64,000 nucleotides of DNA. Source: Alphaproteobacteria bacterium. Its GTDB lineage: Bacteria > Pseudomonadota > Alphaproteobacteria > Caulobacterales > Hyphomonadaceae. The stretch spans positions 145,252 through 209,251 of the forward strand of contig JAHJSB010000015.1 of the NCBI GenBank assembly GCA_018830285.1, given 5' to 3'. Shown here piece by piece: positions 28,857 through 38,230 of the stretch. A program made the translations under genes and the position numbers. How positions within the stretch are numbered: position 1 is the stretch's first letter; each line of letters opens with the position of its first letter. The notes beneath the pieces were generated by a model that was given only the letters and a program-made list of their open reading frames with translations, was not told the origin of the DNA and ran no database searches.

Positions 28857-28887
28857 TCCAGGCGCCAAGCCAAGCAAAACGCAAAGG

Positions 28888-28916
28888 CGGCCCTCCGGAA
28901 ACGGGGGGCCGTTTTT
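28888..28916 (+). terminator. Rho-independent terminator of groESL
   Basis: CGGCCCTCC, loop GGAAAC, then GGGGGGCCG (one G-T pair) and TTTTT. It starts about 30 bp after the groEL stop. Confidence 0.88.
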
Positions 28917-29107
28917 CTTTGCCGACATGTTGCGATGCGGCGATGCCATTGCGGTTTCGGCGTCTGCTCAAGCGCTCCGGGACAAGACGCGAGACAATTG
29001 GAAAGATTCATTCCATAGTTGGGCCGCTACATGTTTCGTGGGGGGACACGCGTGGGACAGTTTCAATTCACAGCGCGTAGCGTCCCTGCATCTGAGGCGA
29101 TGGCGGC

Positions 29108-29761
29108 ATGAAGTTGCCGAGATTCCTAGCGCGGTTCCGGTCGTCCGGCGCTGCCGTTGAACCGGTCCCTGAACCGGAGATCGTGGCGCCGCCGGTTGAG
29201 GCTGCCCCTGCCCGCAGCCGCACAGAGCAACTGAACCAGTGGCTGGCGCTAGGCGCGAATATCGGCGTGCTGCTGGGCCTGATCATCCTGATCGTGGAAG
29301 TGCGCCAGAACGCGGCCCTGTCCCGTGCCGCGATGGAACAGCAGAAGAATGATGTCCTCGCCGAGATCGAGTTCAATATCGCCAAGCCGGAGATTTCCGA
29401 GGTCTGGATCAAATCAATTCGGCACCCGGAAGACCTGACGGAACCGGAGATGCGGACAATGGACGCCATCCTGGTCGCACTGATGCTGCAATGGGACCAT
29501 CGCTTCCAGATGGAGTCGGCTGGACTGGCGAGCCGGGCAGATGCCCGTCAGCACGTGCTCAACTCGGCACGCTACTATTTTGGTAGTCGCTTTGCCAAGC
29601 ACTGGTGGTCGCTTCAGGCGCCCGGCTGGGAAGGCACGCCCATGATGGAAGTGGCCGGCCCGATTGTCGAAGCGACCGACGAGAACTTCCTCGCCGACTA
29701 TCTCGACAAACTCAAACTGGCCCCTCCGGAAACATCCACTGCACCGGAACCCGCGCGATGA
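29108..29761 (+). CDS. Single-TM protein heading the paralogue array
   Basis: 217 residues. There is a Pro/Ala/Glu-rich N-terminus, then one TM helix (about residues 45-64, WLALGANIGVLLGLIILIVE) followed by VRQNAALSRAAMEQQKNDV and a soluble helical C-terminal domain. It is not clearly homologous to the seven following genes: it lacks the MILRR anchor and has no cysteine, whereas each of those has two. Its stop overlaps the next start as ATGA, so it belongs to the same operon. Not assigned to a known function. Confidence 0.7.
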   Translation: MKLPRFLARFRSSGAAVEPVPEPEIVAPPVEAAPARSRTEQLNQWLALGANIGVLLGLIILIVEVRQNAALSRAAMEQQKNDVLAEIEFNIAKPEISEVWIKSIRHPEDLTEPEMRTMDAILVALMLQWDHRFQMESAGLASRADARQHVLNSARYYFGSRFAKHWWSLQAPGWEGTPMMEVAGPIVEATDENFLADYLDKLKLAPPETSTAPEPAR

Positions 29762-30540
29762 TCCTGCGACGTGTCATCTCCCATTTCAAGAAACAGGAAT
29801 GGACCGCGATCGGGCTCGATTTCCTGATCGTCGTTGTCGGCGTGTTTGTGGGTCTGCAAGTTTCAAACTGGAACGAGGGGCGCGCCGTCGACCAGCAATC
29901 CGCGCTGTTTACCGAACGGTTGACCGCCGACCTTCTTGAGGAAGCATGGAATTTCCAGTTCCTGGTCGGCTATTATGACGACGTCCTCACGCATGCGAAC
30001 AAGGCGCTCGCAATCCTCGAAAACGAAAGCCCTGCGTCCGACGAATCGTTGCTGATCAGCGCCTATAGGGCGACCCAATACAATGAGGCCTTTCGGCGCC
30101 GCGCGACGTATGACGAGCTGACCTCAACCGGCAACATTGGCCTCATTCGCGATCAGACGCTGCGATTGACGGCAATGCGCATCTATACCGCCCCGGTGTT
30201 CGACGACCTCGCCAATGAAGGGGTCGCGTCTCGCTACCGGGAAGCGTTTCGCATGATTGTTCCGATCCACGTCCAGAACGCGCTTGCTGCAAACTGCGGC
30301 GACCGCATCATCACTACCGGCGACTTCAACTCTATCGTGGATGCCCTCGATTACGCATGCGAGACGGGACTGCCGCCGCAATCCATTGCCGATGCGGCAA
30401 GCAATTTGCGGTCTGACAAAACGCTTGTTCCGTTGCTGCGCCTGCGGATCGCCAACATACAAACCGTGGCGGGCAATCTGACCACCTACAACCCGGATAT
30501 CGCGTCAGGGCTTGAGGCCGTCATGGAGACCAGCCAATGA
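29758..30540 (+). CDS. DUF6090-like anchored protein, array member 1
   Basis: 260 residues. The anchor MILRRVISHFKKQEWTAIGL continues into a TM (about 18-36) and ends in QVSNWN. The soluble part carries the motif YDELTSTGNIGLIRD, which recurs in the other members, and its only two cysteines in NCGDR and DYACE. The basic N-terminus suggests N-in topology, with the 220-residue domain in the periplasm. The nearest resemblance I recall is to DUF6090-type proteins, whose function is unknown. The whole length resembles member 2. ATGA overlaps at both ends. Confidence 0.78.
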   Translation: MILRRVISHFKKQEWTAIGLDFLIVVVGVFVGLQVSNWNEGRAVDQQSALFTERLTADLLEEAWNFQFLVGYYDDVLTHANKALAILENESPASDESLLISAYRATQYNEAFRRRATYDELTSTGNIGLIRDQTLRLTAMRIYTAPVFDDLANEGVASRYREAFRMIVPIHVQNALAANCGDRIITTGDFNSIVDALDYACETGLPPQSIADAASNLRSDKTLVPLLRLRIANIQTVAGNLTTYNPDIASGLEAVMETSQ

Positions 30541-31319
30541 TCCTGCGCCGCGTTATCAAGCATGTCCAAAATCAGGAATGGACGGCCATTGCGATCGACT
30601 TCCTGATCGTTGTTGTCGGTGTATTCGTTGGTTTGCAGGTGTCAAACTGGAACGCGGCGGTTCAGGAGCGTGCCCGCGCCGCGGTCTATTCCGAAAGGTT
30701 GAAGGCGGAACTGCGAGCTGAACTTGAATACGCAACCGCTCTTCTCGAATACAATACTGTTGCGTCCAGAGCGGGCGATGCGGCCTATCTGGGGCTATCG
30801 GGAAAGGCGGCAATGGATGATGAGACCATTCTGATCAACGCTTACCGCGCGAGCCAGTACAACTGGTATGAACGCCGACGGGCGGCCTTTGACGAGATCG
30901 TGGCATCGGGTTCACTAGCGCTGATTTCCGATGTTGGCCTGCGCGAAACCGCTATTGGCATTTACAACACACCGGTCTTTTCCATCATCCTCTCAGAGGG
31001 ACAGGCGTCCCGCTATCGGGACCTGTTCCGCATGGCGATTGAGCCGTCATTGCACCATGACCTCAGCAAGAATTGCGGCGACAAGGAGTATGACAGCCAT
31101 GGCGCAGCTGTCGGGCTTCTCACGATGGACTATCCCTGTACACTCACTGTCAGCCCGGAAGAGATGACGGAAGGCGTTCTGGCCCTTCGGAGTGACCCCG
31201 AGGTCGCAAGAGCCCTGAAACTGCGTAACGCCCAGGTGTCAGGCAGGACGTATGACCTTGAAGCGACGATAAGGACATTCGGGCTGAAAAAGCTGTTCGA
31301 AGGGGACATCACGCCATGA
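30537..31319 (+). CDS. DUF6090-like anchored protein, array member 2
   Basis: 260 residues. The anchor MILRRVIKHVQNQEWTAIAI is followed by a TM and QVSNWN. It is similar to member 1 through the body (RRRAAFDEIVASGSLALISD; IYNTPVF; ASRYRDLFRM) and has the same cysteine pair, NCGDK and DYPCT, in equivalent positions. The two genes are therefore a recent or functionally constrained duplicate pair. ATGA overlaps on both sides. Function unknown. Confidence 0.78.
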   Translation: MILRRVIKHVQNQEWTAIAIDFLIVVVGVFVGLQVSNWNAAVQERARAAVYSERLKAELRAELEYATALLEYNTVASRAGDAAYLGLSGKAAMDDETILINAYRASQYNWYERRRAAFDEIVASGSLALISDVGLRETAIGIYNTPVFSIILSEGQASRYRDLFRMAIEPSLHHDLSKNCGDKEYDSHGAAVGLLTMDYPCTLTVSPEEMTEGVLALRSDPEVARALKLRNAQVSGRTYDLEATIRTFGLKKLFEGDITP

Positions 31320-32014
31320 TCCTCCGCCGCGTCATCGCCCATGTGAAAAACCAGGAATGGACCGCCATCGCGATTGATTTCCTGATCGTCGTGCTCGGCG
31401 TCTTTGTCGCCACGCAGGTGACCAATTGGAATGCGGAGCGGGCCGCCCACGCCCGGCGCGAGCAGATCGTGGAAGCATTGGTCGCTGACCTGCAGGACGC
31501 GGGTGACGTGCAGACACGGTTCATGTCCACCATCGATACCGGCGTCGCGGAATGGCAGGCGGCCTTTGACGCCGGAAAGCGTCCGCCGCCCTACTATTTC
31601 CGGATATCAGGCTCCGACACGGGTCCGAAGACCTGGCAAACCGTGCAGCAGATGCCGCTGTCTGACATGTTCGATCCGGTGACGATCTTCGATCTCTCGT
31701 TCTACTATGCCGAACTTGACGGCGTTGGCGTGAAATACGTCCGCTACGCCACGTTCGTCGAGAACGAAATCCTGCCCAACCTGAAGCGGGACCCGACGGT
31801 CTTTTACGTCGACGACCAGTCGGCGCTGAAACCGGAATTTGCCGCGAACGCCGACAGGCTGGTGGATTTCCGCAACGACTCGGCGCGTCTCGGTCGCTGG
31901 ACGCAATGCCTCGTCTACCGGCTCGAGGCCGACACGACGTTCACCGAAAATTGCGTCCGCTCAGATTTTGCCCTCGAAGGCATGACGCCTTCTCTGGAGG
32001 CTGAAGCCCCATGA
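31316..32014 (+). CDS. DUF6090-like anchored protein, array member 3
   Basis: 232 residues, the shortest of the seven. The anchor is MILRRVIAHVKNQEWTAIAI, TM, QVTNWN. The soluble domain is the most divergent: the E-x3-SG-x-L motif is replaced by IFDLSFYYAELDGVGVKYVR, and the two cysteines (TQCLVY, ENCVRS) are both near the C-terminus and only about 15 residues apart. The anchor matches members 1-2 at the protein level, not 4-7. ATGA overlaps. Confidence 0.75.
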   Translation: MILRRVIAHVKNQEWTAIAIDFLIVVLGVFVATQVTNWNAERAAHARREQIVEALVADLQDAGDVQTRFMSTIDTGVAEWQAAFDAGKRPPPYYFRISGSDTGPKTWQTVQQMPLSDMFDPVTIFDLSFYYAELDGVGVKYVRYATFVENEILPNLKRDPTVFYVDDQSALKPEFAANADRLVDFRNDSARLGRWTQCLVYRLEADTTFTENCVRSDFALEGMTPSLEAEAP

Positions 32015-32745
32015 TCCTCCGCCGCCTGACAGACGCCTTTCGCAAGCAGGACTGGTTCACCGTCGCGGTAGAGACGCTAATCGTGGTGCTCGGTGTGTTC
32101 CTCGGTCTGCAGGTCCAAAACTGGACAAGCGAACACGGGCGGCGTCAGCTTGAGGCAAGCTATACTGTCCGCCTGCACGAGGAAGTTGTAAGTTTGCAGG
32201 GCCTGCGGGATTCTCTTCTGTCGTTTCGTGACACATGGGCGGAAGGTTTCCGGTCTGCAGCAAGCGTCATCTTTGAGGAAGACGATCGCGACCTGACGCC
32301 TCAAGAGTGTGAGGCGATCGTCTATTCATACATTGTCACCAATCCGACCGATGACCTCGCCTCGCTGATCGAGTTGCAAGGGTCGGGGCAGCTCTCTCTG
32401 TTTCGCAATAAGCGGGTGTCGGAGGCGTTGAGCAATTATTTGCTGGTACGCTCGCGGGTGCGTGATGCAGGAGAAGGGGTGGCCCGCTCGACTACTAACT
32501 TGTCAGGAAAATATCCAAGTCTGGTCTCCATTGTCTCATCCTCGTCCGGCCCCGGTGTTGCATCCGAGTATGCCTGTGATTTAGAGGCGATGCGCGCCGA
32601 CCAAGCCTTTCTGAATGATTTCGAAACGACGAAAAATAGCTACCTGAGCCATGCGACGAACAATAAGACCGTCAATGAGAGCCTCGCCGACCTGCACAGG
32701 GTTTTGGAGGACGTTTTAGGTATCGCGCATGAGGAAACGCCATGA
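32011..32745 (+). CDS. DUF6090-like anchored protein, array member 4
   Basis: 244 residues. It is the first member with the second anchor type, MILRRLTDAFRKQDWFTVAV, TM, QVQNWT. The soluble domain has LIELQGSGQLSLFRNKRV, the shared motif, and two cysteines (QECEAI, YACDLE). Apart from the anchor it is not clearly alignable with members 5-7. The first about 111 nucleotides are almost identical to those of member 5. Confidence 0.76.
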   Translation: MILRRLTDAFRKQDWFTVAVETLIVVLGVFLGLQVQNWTSEHGRRQLEASYTVRLHEEVVSLQGLRDSLLSFRDTWAEGFRSAASVIFEEDDRDLTPQECEAIVYSYIVTNPTDDLASLIELQGSGQLSLFRNKRVSEALSNYLLVRSRVRDAGEGVARSTTNLSGKYPSLVSIVSSSSGPGVASEYACDLEAMRADQAFLNDFETTKNSYLSHATNNKTVNESLADLHRVLEDVLGIAHEETP

Positions 32746-33533
32746 TCCTCCGCCGCCTGACAGACGCCTTTCGCAAGCAGGACTGGTTCACCGTCGCGGT
32801 CGAGACGCTGATCGTGGTGCTCGGTGTGTTCCTCGGCCTGCAGGTCAATAACTGGAATGTGGCGCGCGTCATGCGCACAGACGAAGCGGACTTGCTGTCG
32901 CGTATGATCGTCGAGGCTGAAGACGCGCGCGGCGACATGGCGGATTATCTCTCCTTGAATACCCTGATCCTGACAGATGCGAAGAGTCTGGCGGTCCGCC
33001 TCAGCGATAAGGAGGATTGTCTCGCCATGGATGACGGGATGAAGGCCTTGATCCTGGGAGTGGGTGACTTCCCACCGCCCCGGTTTTCGCTGGCGTCCGC
33101 CAATGAGGCGCTGGAGACCGGCCGGCTCTCCCTGATCAAGTCGCCTGAGATACGCAACGGCGTGCGCGACATGGCTGATCAGATGACTTTTATCGATCGC
33201 CAGTGGCAGCGCTACATCCGGATCAAACAGGATGCCGAGCAGGCCGCCTATGGAGCAGCAGGACTCGGCCTGACGAGCGAACAAGACCTGGACGCAAGGC
33301 CTGGTATGGCAATGTGGAGCGGCCTGGACCAATACCGGATACAGACACCGGAAGGCATTTGCGGGAATGCGGAAATCATTGCGCTCGCCTCGAATGCCAC
33401 AATCACCCAGCACTTGTACACAATCTATGTCGGGCAGGTTTCGACAAAGCTCGACGCGTATGCGGCGAGTCTGGCCACATATTCGGAAGACGGACGACAA
33501 CTGATTCAGGCCACCGCGGAACAGGTCGAATGA
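32742..33533 (+). CDS. DUF6090-like anchored protein, array member 5
   Basis: 263 residues, the longest. The anchor MILRRLTDAFRKQDWFTVAV matches member 4 in protein and nearly in DNA; TM; QVNNWN. In the soluble part ANEALETGRLSLIKSPEI is the shared motif, and the two cysteines are in EDCLAM and GICGNAE. The overlap with the next gene is ATGA. Function unknown. Confidence 0.76.
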   Translation: MILRRLTDAFRKQDWFTVAVETLIVVLGVFLGLQVNNWNVARVMRTDEADLLSRMIVEAEDARGDMADYLSLNTLILTDAKSLAVRLSDKEDCLAMDDGMKALILGVGDFPPPRFSLASANEALETGRLSLIKSPEIRNGVRDMADQMTFIDRQWQRYIRIKQDAEQAAYGAAGLGLTSEQDLDARPGMAMWSGLDQYRIQTPEGICGNAEIIALASNATITQHLYTIYVGQVSTKLDAYAASLATYSEDGRQLIQATAEQVE

Positions 33534-34300
33534 TCCTCCGCCGTCTCACCAATGCCTTCCGCAAGCAGGACTGGTTCACCGTCGCGGTGGAAACCCTGAT
33601 CGTCGTGCTCGGCGTGTTTCTCGGCCTTCAAGTCAATAACTGGAACGCAGACCGCACGGCACGATCCGCCGAGCGCACGACGCTGATCCGGCTGCATGAG
33701 GATTTCGAGGAAAGTATTGCGGGCCAGAGCCGCGACATCCACTTCCTGGAACAGCAACTTGGCGATCAGGCGCTGATACTCAAATCGCTGGACGCATGCG
33801 CCGTCGCGCCGGAGGATGACATGGCGTTCCAGCGTGGCATCGCAACGCTCGGCTGGATAAATCCGCCGCGTCTTTACCGCCGGACAATTGACGAAGTCAC
33901 CGCGTCGGGCAGCACCGACATCATCAGCAACCCCAAAGTCGCCGAAGAACTTGCCCGCATTATCGCGCTTGTTGAGTGGCGCGCGACTTGGTTCGATCGA
34001 ACAATAATGGTGATGGACAACTATCGGCAAAAGGTGGACCCCCACATTCGCTACCAGATGGATCGGACGATTGATAACCCGTTCGTTGCAAACCAGCGGG
34101 GCGGCGTGGCCTACAATATTGAATTACTGTGCAAAGACACCGGGCTTGCGAACGCCATTTCGGCGGTCAGCTATGCGACAGCCGAACGCCTTGAGGCCTA
34201 TCGCCCGATACTGGAGGCCTATGTGGACTTCTCCCCCCTTGTCGCGGCTGAACTGAATAGCCGATGGGGCATCAAAGTATCGCAAGAGGCCGCAAAATGA
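33530..34300 (+). CDS. DUF6090-like anchored protein, array member 6
   Basis: 256 residues. The start is the ATG overlapping the preceding stop; the frame is open further upstream but only inside member 5. Anchor MILRRLTNAFRKQDWFTVAV, TM, QVNNWN. It is closely related to member 7 over the whole length (RLHEDFEESIAGQSRD; DACAVAPEDDMAFQRG; NPPRLYRRTIDEV). The cysteines are in DACAVA and LLCKD. Confidence 0.78.
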   Translation: MILRRLTNAFRKQDWFTVAVETLIVVLGVFLGLQVNNWNADRTARSAERTTLIRLHEDFEESIAGQSRDIHFLEQQLGDQALILKSLDACAVAPEDDMAFQRGIATLGWINPPRLYRRTIDEVTASGSTDIISNPKVAEELARIIALVEWRATWFDRTIMVMDNYRQKVDPHIRYQMDRTIDNPFVANQRGGVAYNIELLCKDTGLANAISAVSYATAERLEAYRPILEAYVDFSPLVAAELNSRWGIKVSQEAAK

Positions 34301-35031
34301 TCCTCCGCCGCATCACTGACGCTTTCCGCAAGCAGGACTGGTTCACCGTCGCGGTGGAAACGCTGATCGTGGTGTTGGGTGTGTTCCTTGGTCTTCAGGT
34401 CAACAACTGGAACGCGGCGCGAATTGAGCAGGCGCAGGAGCAGGAATACCTCATCCGGCTGCATGAGGATTTCGCCGAGAGCGTGGCGGGTCAGTCGCGG
34501 GATGTCAGGTTCCTTGACCAGCAGCTGTCCGATCAGGCCGTGGTTCTGAAGTCGCTGAAGGCTTGCGCGGTGGCGCCAGAGGACTCAGAGGCGTTCCAGC
34601 GCGGCGTGAACACGCTCGGCTATATCAACCCGCCGCGCATTTTTAGGCGGACGGTCGACGAGATGGCCGCTGCGGGCACGATCGACATCATCCGCAATGA
34701 CAGGATCAAGGAAGAGATGGCCCGTATCATCGCTCTGGTCGAATGGCGTGGCGCCGGTTTTGACCAGGTCTCGCGCCAGGTTGAGCACTATCGCTTCATC
34801 ATCGAAGAGCAGGTGCAGTATGATTTGACCCGGACATATGCCGACCCATTCCTCGGAGATTTCGTCGGTGTGGTTTTTGATATCGAGACACTCTGCGAAA
34901 ATCCACTAACGGCCTCGGCCGTATCGGCGATCAGCTATACGACACGGGAACGCCAGCGCGCGTATCGCCCCATACTGGAACAGTACGAGGGCTTCCTGCC
35001 TGAGCTCGAATCCGAGATCGGCAAGCGTTGA
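34297..35031 (+). CDS. DUF6090-like anchored protein, array member 7
   Basis: 244 residues from the ATG overlapping the stop of member 6. Anchor MILRRITDAFRKQDWFTVAV, TM, QVNNWN. It is the closest relative of member 6: RLHEDFAESVAGQSRD, KACAVAPEDSEAFQRG, VDEMAAAGTIDIIRND and RQRAYRPILEQYE. The two cysteines are in KACAVA and TLCEN. It is the last gene of the array; 89 bp separate it from the TolB-like/TPR gene. Confidence 0.78.
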   Translation: MILRRITDAFRKQDWFTVAVETLIVVLGVFLGLQVNNWNAARIEQAQEQEYLIRLHEDFAESVAGQSRDVRFLDQQLSDQAVVLKSLKACAVAPEDSEAFQRGVNTLGYINPPRIFRRTVDEMAAAGTIDIIRNDRIKEEMARIIALVEWRGAGFDQVSRQVEHYRFIIEEQVQYDLTRTYADPFLGDFVGVVFDIETLCENPLTASAVSAISYTTRERQRAYRPILEQYEGFLPELESEIGKR

Positions 35032-35120
35032 GATGAAGGCGTTGCGGGCTTGTGGGAGCCCCTACCCCTTTATGTTGCTTTCGATCCCAAGCATGCTACG
35101 CCATAAAGGCTAAGCACGCG

Positions 35121-36989
35121 GTGACTATATTGAACCAATTCTTTCGCGAACTGCGCCGCCGGAATGTGTTCCGGGTGGCGGGCGTCTACGCGGTTGTCGG
35201 CTGGCTGCTGATCCAGATTGGCGTGGCCACCTTACCGACGTTCGAGGCACCAGCCTGGGTCTTGAAAGTCTTCATTGCGCTGATCATGACTGGCCTGCCG
35301 ATCGCGATCATCTTCGCTTGGGCCTTCGAGATGACGCCCGAGGGCATCAAGCCAACCATGGCGGTAGCCGACGGCGAAAGCATCACGCAGAGCACGGGCC
35401 GAAAGCTCGACTATGTGATTATCGCGGGTCTGGCGCTGGTTGCCGTAATGATCATCGGGGACCGGCTGGTACCGGAAGCGGGTAGAGCTGCAGGTGCAGC
35501 GGCAAGCCGGGCCGTCGGCACTGGGGCTTCCGTCGCTGTCCTGCCGTTCATCGACCTCTCGCCCGACGGGGATCAGGAATACTTTTCCGATGGTATTTCC
35601 GAGGAGATCCTGAACGTCCTCGTCCGTATCCCGAAGCTGAAAGTGGCCGGGCGCACATCCAGCTTTTCTTTCAAAGGCAAGAACGAAGACCTCCGCGAGA
35701 TTGGCGGCCAGCTCGGCGTCGATCATGTGCTGGAGGGAAGCGTGCGCAAGTCAGGCACGAAATTGCGCATTACGGCCCAGCTGATCCGCTCGTCTGACGG
35801 TTTCCATATGTGGTCGGAGACCTATGACCGCGAATTGACGGACGTGTTCGACATTCAGGACGACATTGCGAAGGCTGTTGCTGGCGAACTCGCGTTGTCA
35901 CTGGGCCTCAAATCAGGCGAGTCGCTGGTTGTCGACCGGACGAATGACATTGAAGCCTACGAGAAATACCTGAAGGCACGCCAGCTCTACATTGCGCGTG
36001 GCCAGGACAATCTCGATGCCGCCTTGTTGCTGTTGCACGAGGTCACGGCGCGCGATCCCGGATTTGCGCCTGCCTGGGCACTGATCGGTAATACCTATGT
36101 CGTCTACGAAGCCTACCAGCCGGGCTATCCGCCAGATGGCGATTGGCAGCAGTGGCGCGCGATCGGGCTTGCGGCCTCGGAACGGGCGATTGCCCTCGAT
36201 CCGGGCAATGCCGAAGCTCATATAAGCCGTGCATCGCTTATGCTCTATTCAGGCGACCTGATCTCAGGCGCAGCAGAGCTGGACAAGGCGGTTGACCTTG
36301 CCGCTGACAACGCGGCTGTCCTAGACCTCGGGGCGCAAATGCTGTTAGCCTTAGGGTATCGCCAAGAAGCCAGAAGCCTTGCGCACCGAGCGGTCGGGAT
36401 TGATCCGTTGGTGTCCATCTACCGGAACACGCTCGGCAATACGATGGCCTTTGGCGGCGCAAGTCCGGACGTGCCCGATCCGTCGGCAGAAGCACTGAGA
36501 CAATATGCAAAAGTCCGGGAGATCGGCCCTGACATGATCTACGGCTACATGAATGCCTATCGAACCTTGTTGAAGGACGGGCGGTTAGACGAAGCCGAGG
36601 CGATGTTCCAGATGGCAGTTGACAGGGGGCTGGTACCGCCCGAAGCGCTGGCGGATGTGAAGTCGGCCCTGTCCGCCGCCAGGCAGGACGAAGCGGGCGC
36701 GCCAGCGCTTCGCGCCATGTTTGCGGCGAACCCGAATACGCAAGGCACGATCACCATTGTGCTGAAAGACCCGGACCTGACGATTGCCTTGATGCAACCT
36801 GTCTGGGACGAAGCATACCAGAGCGAACCAGTGCTTTTCCTCCTCAGGCCCGCCAGCATATACCAGCACCCGACTTGGAAAGCGGAGGTGCGCAAGCAAG
36901 GCGTCCTCGCCCTCTGGAAATCGCGCGGCTTTCCCGACTGGTGCAAACCAGTCGGGGCCGACGATTTCGTGTGCAATAGCGGGGAATAG
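35121..36989 (+). CDS. Membrane TolB-like / TPR protein
   Basis: 622 residues from a GTG with AAAGG 11 bp upstream; in-frame codons upstream do not look coding. A basic FFRELRRRNVFRVAGVYAVV precedes two TM helices (about 20-40 and 50-70), and a third lies at about 100-116 (VIIAGLALVAVMIIGD). Then comes the FlgO/TolB-like domain: SVAVLPFIDLSPDGDQEYFS, DGISEEILNVL, GVDHVLEGSVRKSG, MWSETYDREL. TPR-like helical repeats fill 270-560. Such proteins often regulate through cytoplasmic or periplasmic partners, but this one has no CadC HTH or cyclase domain. It directly follows the paralogue array on the same strand. Confidence 0.78.
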   Translation: MTILNQFFRELRRRNVFRVAGVYAVVGWLLIQIGVATLPTFEAPAWVLKVFIALIMTGLPIAIIFAWAFEMTPEGIKPTMAVADGESITQSTGRKLDYVIIAGLALVAVMIIGDRLVPEAGRAAGAAASRAVGTGASVAVLPFIDLSPDGDQEYFSDGISEEILNVLVRIPKLKVAGRTSSFSFKGKNEDLREIGGQLGVDHVLEGSVRKSGTKLRITAQLIRSSDGFHMWSETYDRELTDVFDIQDDIAKAVAGELALSLGLKSGESLVVDRTNDIEAYEKYLKARQLYIARGQDNLDAALLLLHEVTARDPGFAPAWALIGNTYVVYEAYQPGYPPDGDWQQWRAIGLAASERAIALDPGNAEAHISRASLMLYSGDLISGAAELDKAVDLAADNAAVLDLGAQMLLALGYRQEARSLAHRAVGIDPLVSIYRNTLGNTMAFGGASPDVPDPSAEALRQYAKVREIGPDMIYGYMNAYRTLLKDGRLDEAEAMFQMAVDRGLVPPEALADVKSALSAARQDEAGAPALRAMFAANPNTQGTITIVLKDPDLTIALMQPVWDEAYQSEPVLFLLRPASIYQHPTWKAEVRKQGVLALWKSRGFPDWCKPVGADDFVCNSGE

Positions 36990-36994
36990 CCCGC

Positions 36995-38230
36995 CTAGAG
37001 CAGGTCGCCGCCAGCGGCAGCCGCTGTCGTGCCATCCTTCTTGTAGGCGCGGATGACGTTCTTGCCGGTGATCCATTTGTGCACTTCGTCCGGCCCGTCG
37101 ACGAGACGCTGGGACCGGATATGCGTGTACCAGGCGGCCAGCGGCGTATCGAGGCTGTAGCCAAGGGCACCGTGGAGCTGGATAGCCGTGTCGACGACCC
37201 TGTGCACCATGTTGGCGAGGAAGACCTTGGCGATGCCGTTCTCCTGGCGCAGGTCCATGCCGTTCTCAGCCTTGTAGGCGATATGCATGAGCATGAGGCG
37301 GGCAATGTAGAGTTCGCTGGCACATTCAGCGAGCATGAACTGGACACCCTGGCGGTCTTCGAGCCCCTTGCCGAACGTGGAGCGCTTGGTGACGTGCTCT
37401 GTGGCGAGGTCGAGTGCGCGCTGGGCCATCGCCACATTGTGCATGCCGTGGCGCAGGCGGCCATAGGCAAGCCGGTGCTGGCCCATGGAGAAGCCGCCGC
37501 CCTCGCCGCCAAGCAGATTTTCTTCCGGCACGATCAGGTTGTCGATCTTCACCTCGGCGTGGCCGCCGCCCATCTCTTCGTAATGTGCGCCGTGCACGGC
37601 CATTGTGGGGATATCGCGGAGGATCCTGTAACCGGGATTTGGCAGCTCGACGATGAAGGTGGAATATTGCTGGTGGCGCGGTGCGTCGGGATTGGTCTTG
37701 GCCATGACGACCGCAATGTCGGCGGCGCTGGCGGCGCTGGAGAACCATTTCTCGCCGTTGAGGACGTAGTTGCCCTTGCCGTCTTTTACCGCAGTCGTCT
37801 GCATGCCGGTGGCATCGGCGCCCGCGGCCTTCTCGGTCATCGAGTAGCAGATGCGCTTGTCGCCATTGAACAGGGGTTTCAGGTATTTCTCTTTCTGGAA
37901 ATCGGTGCCGTGCGCGAGCAGCGTGAGCATGGTCGCGTCATCGGGGCCTTGCGAGTTCATCGAGAGGGCGCCGAGATGGCTCTGGCCAAGTTCCATCTGC
38001 ACGAGCGCATTGGCCAGGGGGCCGAGGCCCATGCCGCCATGCTCGACCGGGATGAAGGGCAGCCAGAGGCCCTGGGCGCGGGCTTTCTTGCGCAGTTCGG
38101 CCAGCACGGTCTTGTACGGCTTGCCGGCATCCATGGCTTTCTCGGCGGGGATGCATTCGTCCTGCACCCATTGGCGCACGCGCTCGCGCACTTCCTTTGC
38201 ATCATCCGGAATGGTGAAATCGATGGCCAT
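36995..38230 (-). CDS. Acyl-CoA dehydrogenase
   Basis: 411 residues with the three ACAD domains: an N-terminal helical part (LWLPFIPVEHGGMGLGPLAN), a middle beta domain with RICYSMTEKAAGADATGMQT and NGEKWFSSAASAADIAVVMA, and a C-terminal helical part ending in RLVDGPDEVHKWITGKNVI. It is an FAD enzyme catalysing alpha,beta-dehydrogenation of an acyl-CoA; the DGPDEVH ending is shared with the ACAD10/11-like group. It is divergent from the SDR gene, with the two starts 142 bp apart. Confidence 0.92.
   Translation of the reverse strand: MAIDFTIPDDAKEVRERVRQWVQDECIPAEKAMDAGKPYKTVLAELRKKARAQGLWLPFIPVEHGGMGLGPLANALVQMELGQSHLGALSMNSQGPDDATMLTLLAHGTDFQKEKYLKPLFNGDKRICYSMTEKAAGADATGMQTTAVKDGKGNYVLNGEKWFSSAASAADIAVVMAKTNPDAPRHQQYSTFIVELPNPGYRILRDIPTMAVHGAHYEEMGGGHAEVKIDNLIVPEENLLGGEGGGFSMGQHRLAYGRLRHGMHNVAMAQRALDLATEHVTKRSTFGKGLEDRQGVQFMLAECASELYIARLMLMHIAYKAENGMDLRQENGIAKVFLANMVHRVVDTAIQLHGALGYSLDTPLAAWYTHIRSQRLVDGPDEVHKWITGKNVIRAYKKDGTTAAAAGGDLL

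Follow-up and report, generated by a model that had tools for sequence, protein, structure and literature searches.

Bacterial repertoires in which different rear domains are swapped behind one constant front part are known among toxins and surface antigens. The protein family nearest to the locus analyzed here is DUF6090 (PF19578), a family of unknown function in which an N-terminal transmembrane (TM) segment leads into an N-W junction (a feature read from the sequences and not from the Pfam text), and the nearest genetic parallel is offered by the Rhs and polymorphic-toxin genes, described in the accessible parts of two reports as having a constant N-terminal part and displaced, exchangeable C-terminal parts made by recombination (PMC2935791, PMC3482391). 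The locus lies in a window of 64,000 nucleotides (the whole stretch of DNA that was analyzed; contig JAHJSB010000015.1, positions 145,252 to 209,251, Hyphomonadaceae) and holds an array of seven consecutive plus-strand genes, g1 to g7, each encoding a 39-residue front block, here called the handle, joined to a differing rear part, here called the ectodomain. Like DUF6090 proteins, g1 to g7 have one N-terminal TM segment, then Q-x-x-N-W-N, then a further domain, with N37 and W38 invariant. Like the Rhs and polymorphic toxins, as far as the accessible text describes these, they combine a constant front with variable rear parts that, judging from the sequences, have been recombined; unlike them, every array domain has a complete gene, with a handle of its own, within a single operon-like run. 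The same swap logic seems to act here on operon-like runs of small inner-membrane proteins without known function. On balance we favor the view that the locus is a recombining array, in which a shared 117-base handle block and differing predicted periplasmic domains are exchanged independently, so that the modules an array displays for envelope binding or sensing would be open to change.

The seven open reading frames (ORFs), g1 (29758..30540, 260 residues), g2 (30537..31319, 260 residues), g3 (31316..32014, 232 residues), g4 (32011..32745, 244 residues), g5 (32742..33533, 263 residues), g6 (33530..34300, 256 residues), and g7 (34297..35031, 244 residues), span 232 to 263 residues, contain no internal stops, and agree in all seven cases with the starts, the MILRR N-terminus, and the common 39-residue anchor given in a preliminary description of this DNA. 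They follow a plus-strand leader gene, g0 (29108..29761, 217 residues), whose product has one TM segment (residues 45-63), a '..NIGVLLGLIILIVEVRQN..' anchor, and no Pfam family at E ≤ 1. The ATGA overlaps of the preliminary description were likewise recovered, each of the seven junctions from g0/g1 through g6/g7 being a 4-nucleotide overlap. The handle blocks, all on the plus strand, occupy 29758..29874 (g1), 30537..30653 (g2), 31316..31432 (g3), 32011..32127 (g4), 32742..32858 (g5), 33530..33646 (g6), and 34297..34413 (g7). In g1, taken as the example of the proposed recombination module, the 39 codons comprise the start codon, the positively charged N-terminal end, a TM segment with G-x3-G, and Q-V-x-N-W-N; g3 carries a G-x3-A variant, and the blocks of g2, g6, and g7 enter into the invariant positions and the identity profile given below. 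Eighteen positions are invariant in g1 to g7 (M1, I2, L3, R4, R5, Q13, W15, L23, I24, V25, V26, G28, V29, F30, Q34, V35, N37, and W38). Pairwise identity within the window is 51 to 97% for handles and 17 to 54% for ectodomains. The g4 and g5 blocks are 94% identical in DNA and use the same codon at 31 of 34 compared residues, where 13.4 are expected. Two handle types are present, QEW in g1 to g3 and QDW in g4 to g7, and the ectodomains fall into groups F1 (g1 and g2), F15 (g3), F0 (g4), F13 (g5), and F2 (g6 and g7). The motif E-x3-[SA]-G-x-[LI]-x-[LI]-I, previously assigned to six of the seven proteins, occurs as written in two (g2 and g7); a relaxed form, at residues 120-122, is found in six, and g3 is without the E-x3-S-G motif. 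The relaxed form is present in 184 of 397 relatives versus 1.75 on average when ectodomains are shuffled.

The likeness to DUF6090 that had been suggested for these proteins pointed in the right direction but did not amount to membership. The PF19578 scores were 18.5 bits for g1 (residues 23-144), 18.5 bits for g2 (residues 23-151), and 12.3 bits for both g3 and g7, with no match at E ≤ 1 for g4 to g6. These values lie below the gathering score of 23.5 bits, so we file g1 to g7 as relatives of the family and not as members. Relatives in two other arrays pass the cut-off (24.6 bits in L128 and 25.1 bits in L066), and P0026, an 80% relative of g1, carries the Pfam DUF6090 label. The open-access literature searched contains no mention of DUF6090 or PF19578; the uses of NNWNE found there are, by title, unrelated, and broader searches of titles and excerpts in that literature (subscription papers and preprints being outside their scope) gave no description of such arrays among the matches listed.

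The genome search for anchor arrays with member counts that the preliminary description had recommended was carried out. The array sample comprised 86 stretches (12 fetched, 73 scanned, and the window), the scanned part being the best 80 of 160 confirmed stretches, which represent 73 loci. Runs were ended at a gap of 400 bases or more or at the end of a stretch, and a run was discarded when at least half of its members were already represented, which reduced 127 runs to 116 distinct ones of 1 to 16 members. Two or more members are present in 85 runs and seven or more in 14, window included; together with a large Bacteroidota-side run in genome G331, these counts do not support the earlier impression that a seven-fold array is exceptional. 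Stretches L001 to L044, partly duplicates of later stretches, were omitted from the array analysis, and several omitted loci hold matches of other relatives (e.g., G004, G006, G010, G014, G019, G028, G032, and G036), so the run sizes lean toward larger arrays. Start codons were set by rule and are wrong for a few members in broken or masked stretches (e.g., L060 and L115). After members that were incomplete or outside 200 to 300 residues were dropped, 397 were kept. Among 300 array junctions, 214 are -4 overlaps (ATGA) and 41 are -1 overlaps; residue 2 is Ile at 211 of the 214 and Leu at 34 of the 41, and at the -4 junctions the stop of the preceding gene is the TGA inside ATGA, as the geometry forces.

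Handles track the array and not the ectodomain group, at both the residue and the codon level. Network clustering placed the 397 members in 32 ectodomain groups, 19 of which occur in at least four loci, and their order differs among arrays. The median handle identity was 76.9% for members of the same array that belong to different groups and have no ectodomain hit to one another (725 pairs), 59.0% for members of the same ectodomain group at different loci (5857 pairs), and 58.8% for members of different groups without a hit at different loci (62908 pairs). The nearest handle came from the same array in 104.9 of 366 cases, versus 4.5 by chance. At shared residues, handle codons of different-group members within an array were identical in 63.2% of adjacent and 63.1% of non-adjacent pairs, when codon use predicts 41 to 42%; the corresponding ectodomain value was 40% versus 39% expected. 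The handle types among the 397 members are QNW (215), QEW (107), and QDW (63), with 12 unassigned, and two or three types occur in 35 of the 61 arrays with at least three members. Mutual information between handle type and ectodomain group was 0.167 versus 0.152 in a within-array shuffle (SD 0.017, P = 0.19), i.e., no detectable association, and that between handle type and array was 0.909 versus 0.468 shuffled (SD 0.031). In the DNA of 666 same-array, different-group pairs (proteobacterial arrays, handles of exactly 39 residues), identity is 0.37 immediately ahead of the ATG and 0.86 past it; at the other end of the block, between nucleotides 105 and 149, it declines from 0.74 to 0.34, the drop coming after nucleotide 119. 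Third-position identity in the handle block is 0.57 to 0.63 within arrays versus 0.42 to 0.47 between loci. The ectodomains had earlier been taken to diverge simply after the anchor; they instead form distinct conserved families, apparently recombined onto local handles. Modular exchange of handle and ectodomain is, on these comparisons, highly probable.

Individual cases are consistent with this conclusion. Between L055 and L077, two ectodomains are identical at 163 of 207 residues (79%) and their handles at only 20 of 39 (51%), and likewise ectodomain and handle identities are 171/221 and 24/39 for L069/L071 and 144/206 and 18/39 for L045/L069. As no other part of the family is normally so well conserved as the handle, similar ectodomains on dissimilar handles are hard to obtain without exchange. 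The g2 ectodomain is 91% identical to that of its closest relative, which lies in L065, with a proportion of synonymous differences (pS) of 0.215, and the pS of the handle is 0.621. Of 62 ortholog pairs, 41 had fourfold-degenerate sites that were more divergent in the handle (P = 0.015, the pairs not being independent; two of 64 pairs were removed by the handle-length filter), and so had 36 of 52 locus pairs. The reverse case is provided by L066/L087, with 1 of 17 fourfold differences in the handle versus 35 of 81 in the ectodomain. The rear half of the handle recurs in a few forms (GVFIGIQVANWN, GILIAFQITNWN, GVFLGIQLGNWN, and GVFIGLQVQEWS) with differing front halves in L128, L066, L061, and other arrays, so exchange may also occur within the handle. 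Same-type handles are not significantly clustered side by side (93 adjacent same-type pairs versus 87.7 shuffled, SD 4.0), and the QEW-then-QDW order of the window is thus no general pattern.

The ectodomains are under purifying selection: the ratio of nonsynonymous to synonymous substitution rates (dN/dS), computable for 61 of 64 ortholog pairs, had a median of 0.18 and a highest value of 0.66. These are whole-domain averages, in which single fast sites are still possible, and for the ortholog pairs tested they rule out hypervariable arms-race domains and favor conserved ligands.

The products are very likely inner-membrane proteins with a cytoplasmic N-terminal end and a periplasmic remainder, according to the predicted topology. 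Each of g1 to g7 has a single hydrophobic segment within residues 15-35 and three or four Lys or Arg residues among the first 14. AlphaFold2 models of g1 (predicted local distance difference test score 88.9) and g6 (89.4) are mostly helical, with one unbroken long helix passing through and beyond the membrane and then a bundle. An A-x-A-like sequence resembles a cleavage site, and such a triplet (A/V/S-x-A) is present in the rear of the handle in only 16 of 397 relatives; a cleaved signal peptide was rejected on this scarcity and on the unbroken model helix. As a prediction, the common uncleaved membrane handle with the remainder outside the cytoplasm that the preliminary description envisaged is borne out by these features and by the presence of exactly two cysteine residues in each of g1 to g7. 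Cysteine number is even in 392 of 408 array members (a tally that includes a few short ones), which is consistent with predicted periplasmic disulfides. G-x3-G is a pairing motif of TM helices, and G-x3-[GA] is present in 389 of 397 handles. No solved relative was found by sequence with the g1 and g6 alignments (best E 0.13), and the PDB fold search gave no match at E ≤ 0.001.

Arrays occur in Alpha- and Gammaproteobacteria and, by inference, on the Bacteroidota side. Of 7997 candidates scored, 2782 were homologs at E ≤ 0.001. Matches are present in 19 of 41 genomes and in 5 of 241 genomes of the class, the source genome being included in both counts; G031, among the 41, has 25 matches, 23 of them in a single 19-kb stretch. 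On the inferred Bacteroidota side, DUF6090 matches were found in 11 of 80 genomes. One of these, G331, has at least 36 (36 of 49 candidates scored), 29 of them within C2:77321-130286 (∼53 kb), in a run whose front ends are very similar and whose genes are mostly separated by short gaps in place of overlaps. The kind of repeated handle is the same on both sides, whereas the Bacteroidota-side runs have mostly gaps and few cysteines, and the proteobacterial arrays have ATGA junctions and paired cysteines. In stretches L173 to L175, which cover the G331 run, many DUF6090-like genes have nearly identical MITLFRRIREKLIASGSVTKYLLYA fronts, and other genes lie between them, including two TPR-type membrane proteins.

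The same kind of protein is encoded immediately after the window array. The plus-strand gene at 35118..36989 specifies a 623-residue candidate partner with TPR matches (Pfam) and three predicted TM segments; we presume that it is "TolB-like" and belongs to COG5616, only the TPR part coming from the Pfam match. In the accessible parts of the open-access literature, COG5616 appears in a transcriptome context only. Beside arrays, a cluster of TPR-type membrane proteins accounts for 55 ORFs at 27 loci, 54 of the 55 on the array strand, and the family defined by a strict front motif is found at 15 of 81 loci with 29 of 29 ORFs on that strand. The copies located by or in an array number four of five in G031 (beside the long array), two of two in G331 (inside the run), and one of three in the source genome, with binomial estimates of 1e-7, 5e-4, and 0.02, respectively, for genomes picked after the data were seen. 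As read from these sequences, the relation of the TPR protein to the arrays is an association and not proof of partnership.

In the mechanism that we propose, homologous recombination between handle blocks would add, remove, and swap cassettes, and the block would serve as both crossover site and operon joint; at an ATGA junction the handle supplies a start for its gene as well as the stop for the preceding one, which would keep the operon readable. The predicted products would be inner-membrane-tethered, disulfide-bonded, mostly helical periplasmic domains, and the near-universal G-x3-[GA] could let members pair in mixed oligomers. Each ectodomain family might bind its own envelope ligand, and the TPR membrane protein might act as the hub that receives the members' reports. 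A binding or sensing role for the ectodomains is offered tentatively, and the least certain part of the scheme is that envelope ligands are bound by the domains and signaled by way of the TPR protein located with the array. An extension to a combinatorial envelope receptor system across phyla, with a common deck of ectodomains dealt to each genome as an operon, handle DNA as the crossover site, the G-x3-G of the handle setting the pairing, and the TPR protein as shared hub, is doubtful; were it correct, one handle block, as crossover DNA and as pairing protein, would set both how new specificities plug in and which receptor combinations form. If the function is found, it could apply to many "hypothetical proteins" among the homologs, and plug-in membrane modules would have a natural blueprint in the handle.

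The alternative that survives best is a protection repertoire, in which the ectodomains, tethered to the membrane, provide immunity or act as decoys when toxins, phages, or predators arrive in the periplasm and are gathered in the manner of orphan immunity genes. The patchy presence of the arrays would suit such a role, and so would their differing size and content and the variable content 3' of a gene that we take, by eye, to be groEL. Among close relatives, the interval after groEL (28860-37000 in the window; compared in L164 to L170 and L047) holds an array, other ORFs, or rearranged sequence. In G015 it contains two other ORFs, an ortholog of the leader gene (81%), and an array of differing composition; in G005, G002, and G051 it contains other ORFs and no array ahead of what we recognize, also by eye, as an acyl-CoA dehydrogenase gene; and in G012, G006, G007, and G019 there is no array after groEL within the stretch fetched. 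Against protection, no PADLOC defense model was matched save a weak partial Cas10_Id match in g7 (E 0.0016), and, within the sensitivity of Pfam, NCBIfam, and PADLOC, g0 to g7 and the TPR protein match no family of toxins or of immunity proteins. No toxin was recognized by eye among the recurrent neighbor families listed, six neighbors having been scanned against Pfam. The purifying selection on the ectodomains and the well-conserved g1 family are also unlike typical arms-race proteins, and a search of viral contigs gave no relative of the g1 family; with the lack of a viral fold match for the g1 model at E ≤ 0.001, the latter observation eliminated a phage origin, for the g1 family. We regard protection as unlikely.

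It is less probable still that the arrays are a by-product of recombination, paralogs that grow and shrink by unequal crossing-over while most members have no joint function. Run sizes of 1 to 16 agree with this possibility, and nothing points to arrays being selected for non-redundancy, same-group pairs within arrays being no rarer than in shuffled ones (80 versus 68.0, SD 8.2); the open frames, the tight junctions, and the low dN/dS nevertheless argue for use, as does the recurrence of the TPR protein and of proteins with an RQN anchor beside the arrays.

Several observations weigh against the recombining array with sensor-like modules. The ectodomain grouping varies with clustering settings, the nearest handle came from the same ectodomain group in 59.8 of 366 cases versus 28.1 by chance, and the mutual information between type and group exceeds a global shuffle (0.167 versus 0.113, SD 0.017). 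The handle block also stands out between loci (0.53-0.77), so part of its similarity reflects protein constraint, and the proportion of nonsynonymous differences was higher in the handle than in the ectodomain in 26 of 64 close ortholog pairs but not in the other 38. Ectodomain pairs that are more than 65% identical have handles whose identity exceeds the background for their loci by 11 to 13 points; exchange is, as the sequences indicate, frequent on the scale of families and not of every transfer. Cysteine parity fails in the Bacteroidota-side arrays, where 11 of 70 members have one cysteine and 55 have none. Fold matches to four-helix-bundle sensor domains of the periplasm (e.g., PDB 4k0d, 8bsb, and 6s33) lie below the level that is meaningful for helical bundles, and g1 to g7, with one TM segment each, have no second TM segment or cytoplasmic domain for signal output. 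The TPR family is abundant in some genomes (23 copies in G369), and its co-location was computed for three genomes only, chosen after the data were seen. The recombination itself is deduced from sequences, and the ligand and partner roles are putative. The opposite view, that there is no exchange and that handles within an array share residues and codons only through selection by the local membrane and codon usage, can draw on the raised codon identity of handles even between loci (0.498 versus 0.372 expected, 1500 sampled pairs) but is highly improbable, because the within-array codon excess is far larger in handles than in the ectodomains of the same genes, discrete handle types adjoin in one array in the window and elsewhere, and ectodomain orthologs bear different handle types.

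Other families recur around the arrays. The leader-gene family of g0 lies beside arrays at 17 loci, and a second family with an RQN anchor accounts for 25 ORFs at 17 loci. Further small single-pass families, leader-like, in which the TM segment is followed by a '..VRQN' or '..IRQN' junction, occur in or beside the arrays of L050, L051, L055, L100, L107, L114, L121, and others. For the window array, promoter-like sites (3 versus 2.7) and terminator-like sites (9 versus 7.0) were at the chance level. A near-identical small GC hairpin is present in the handle DNA of g1 (29829-29842), g3 (31387-31400), and g6 (33601-33614), for which no role is claimed. The source genome has eight matches, seven in the array and one solitary; the latter, an eighth handle-bearing gene outside the array (G000:C1:10298-10681, minus strand; L056:7320-8087), encodes a 255-residue protein with four cysteines.

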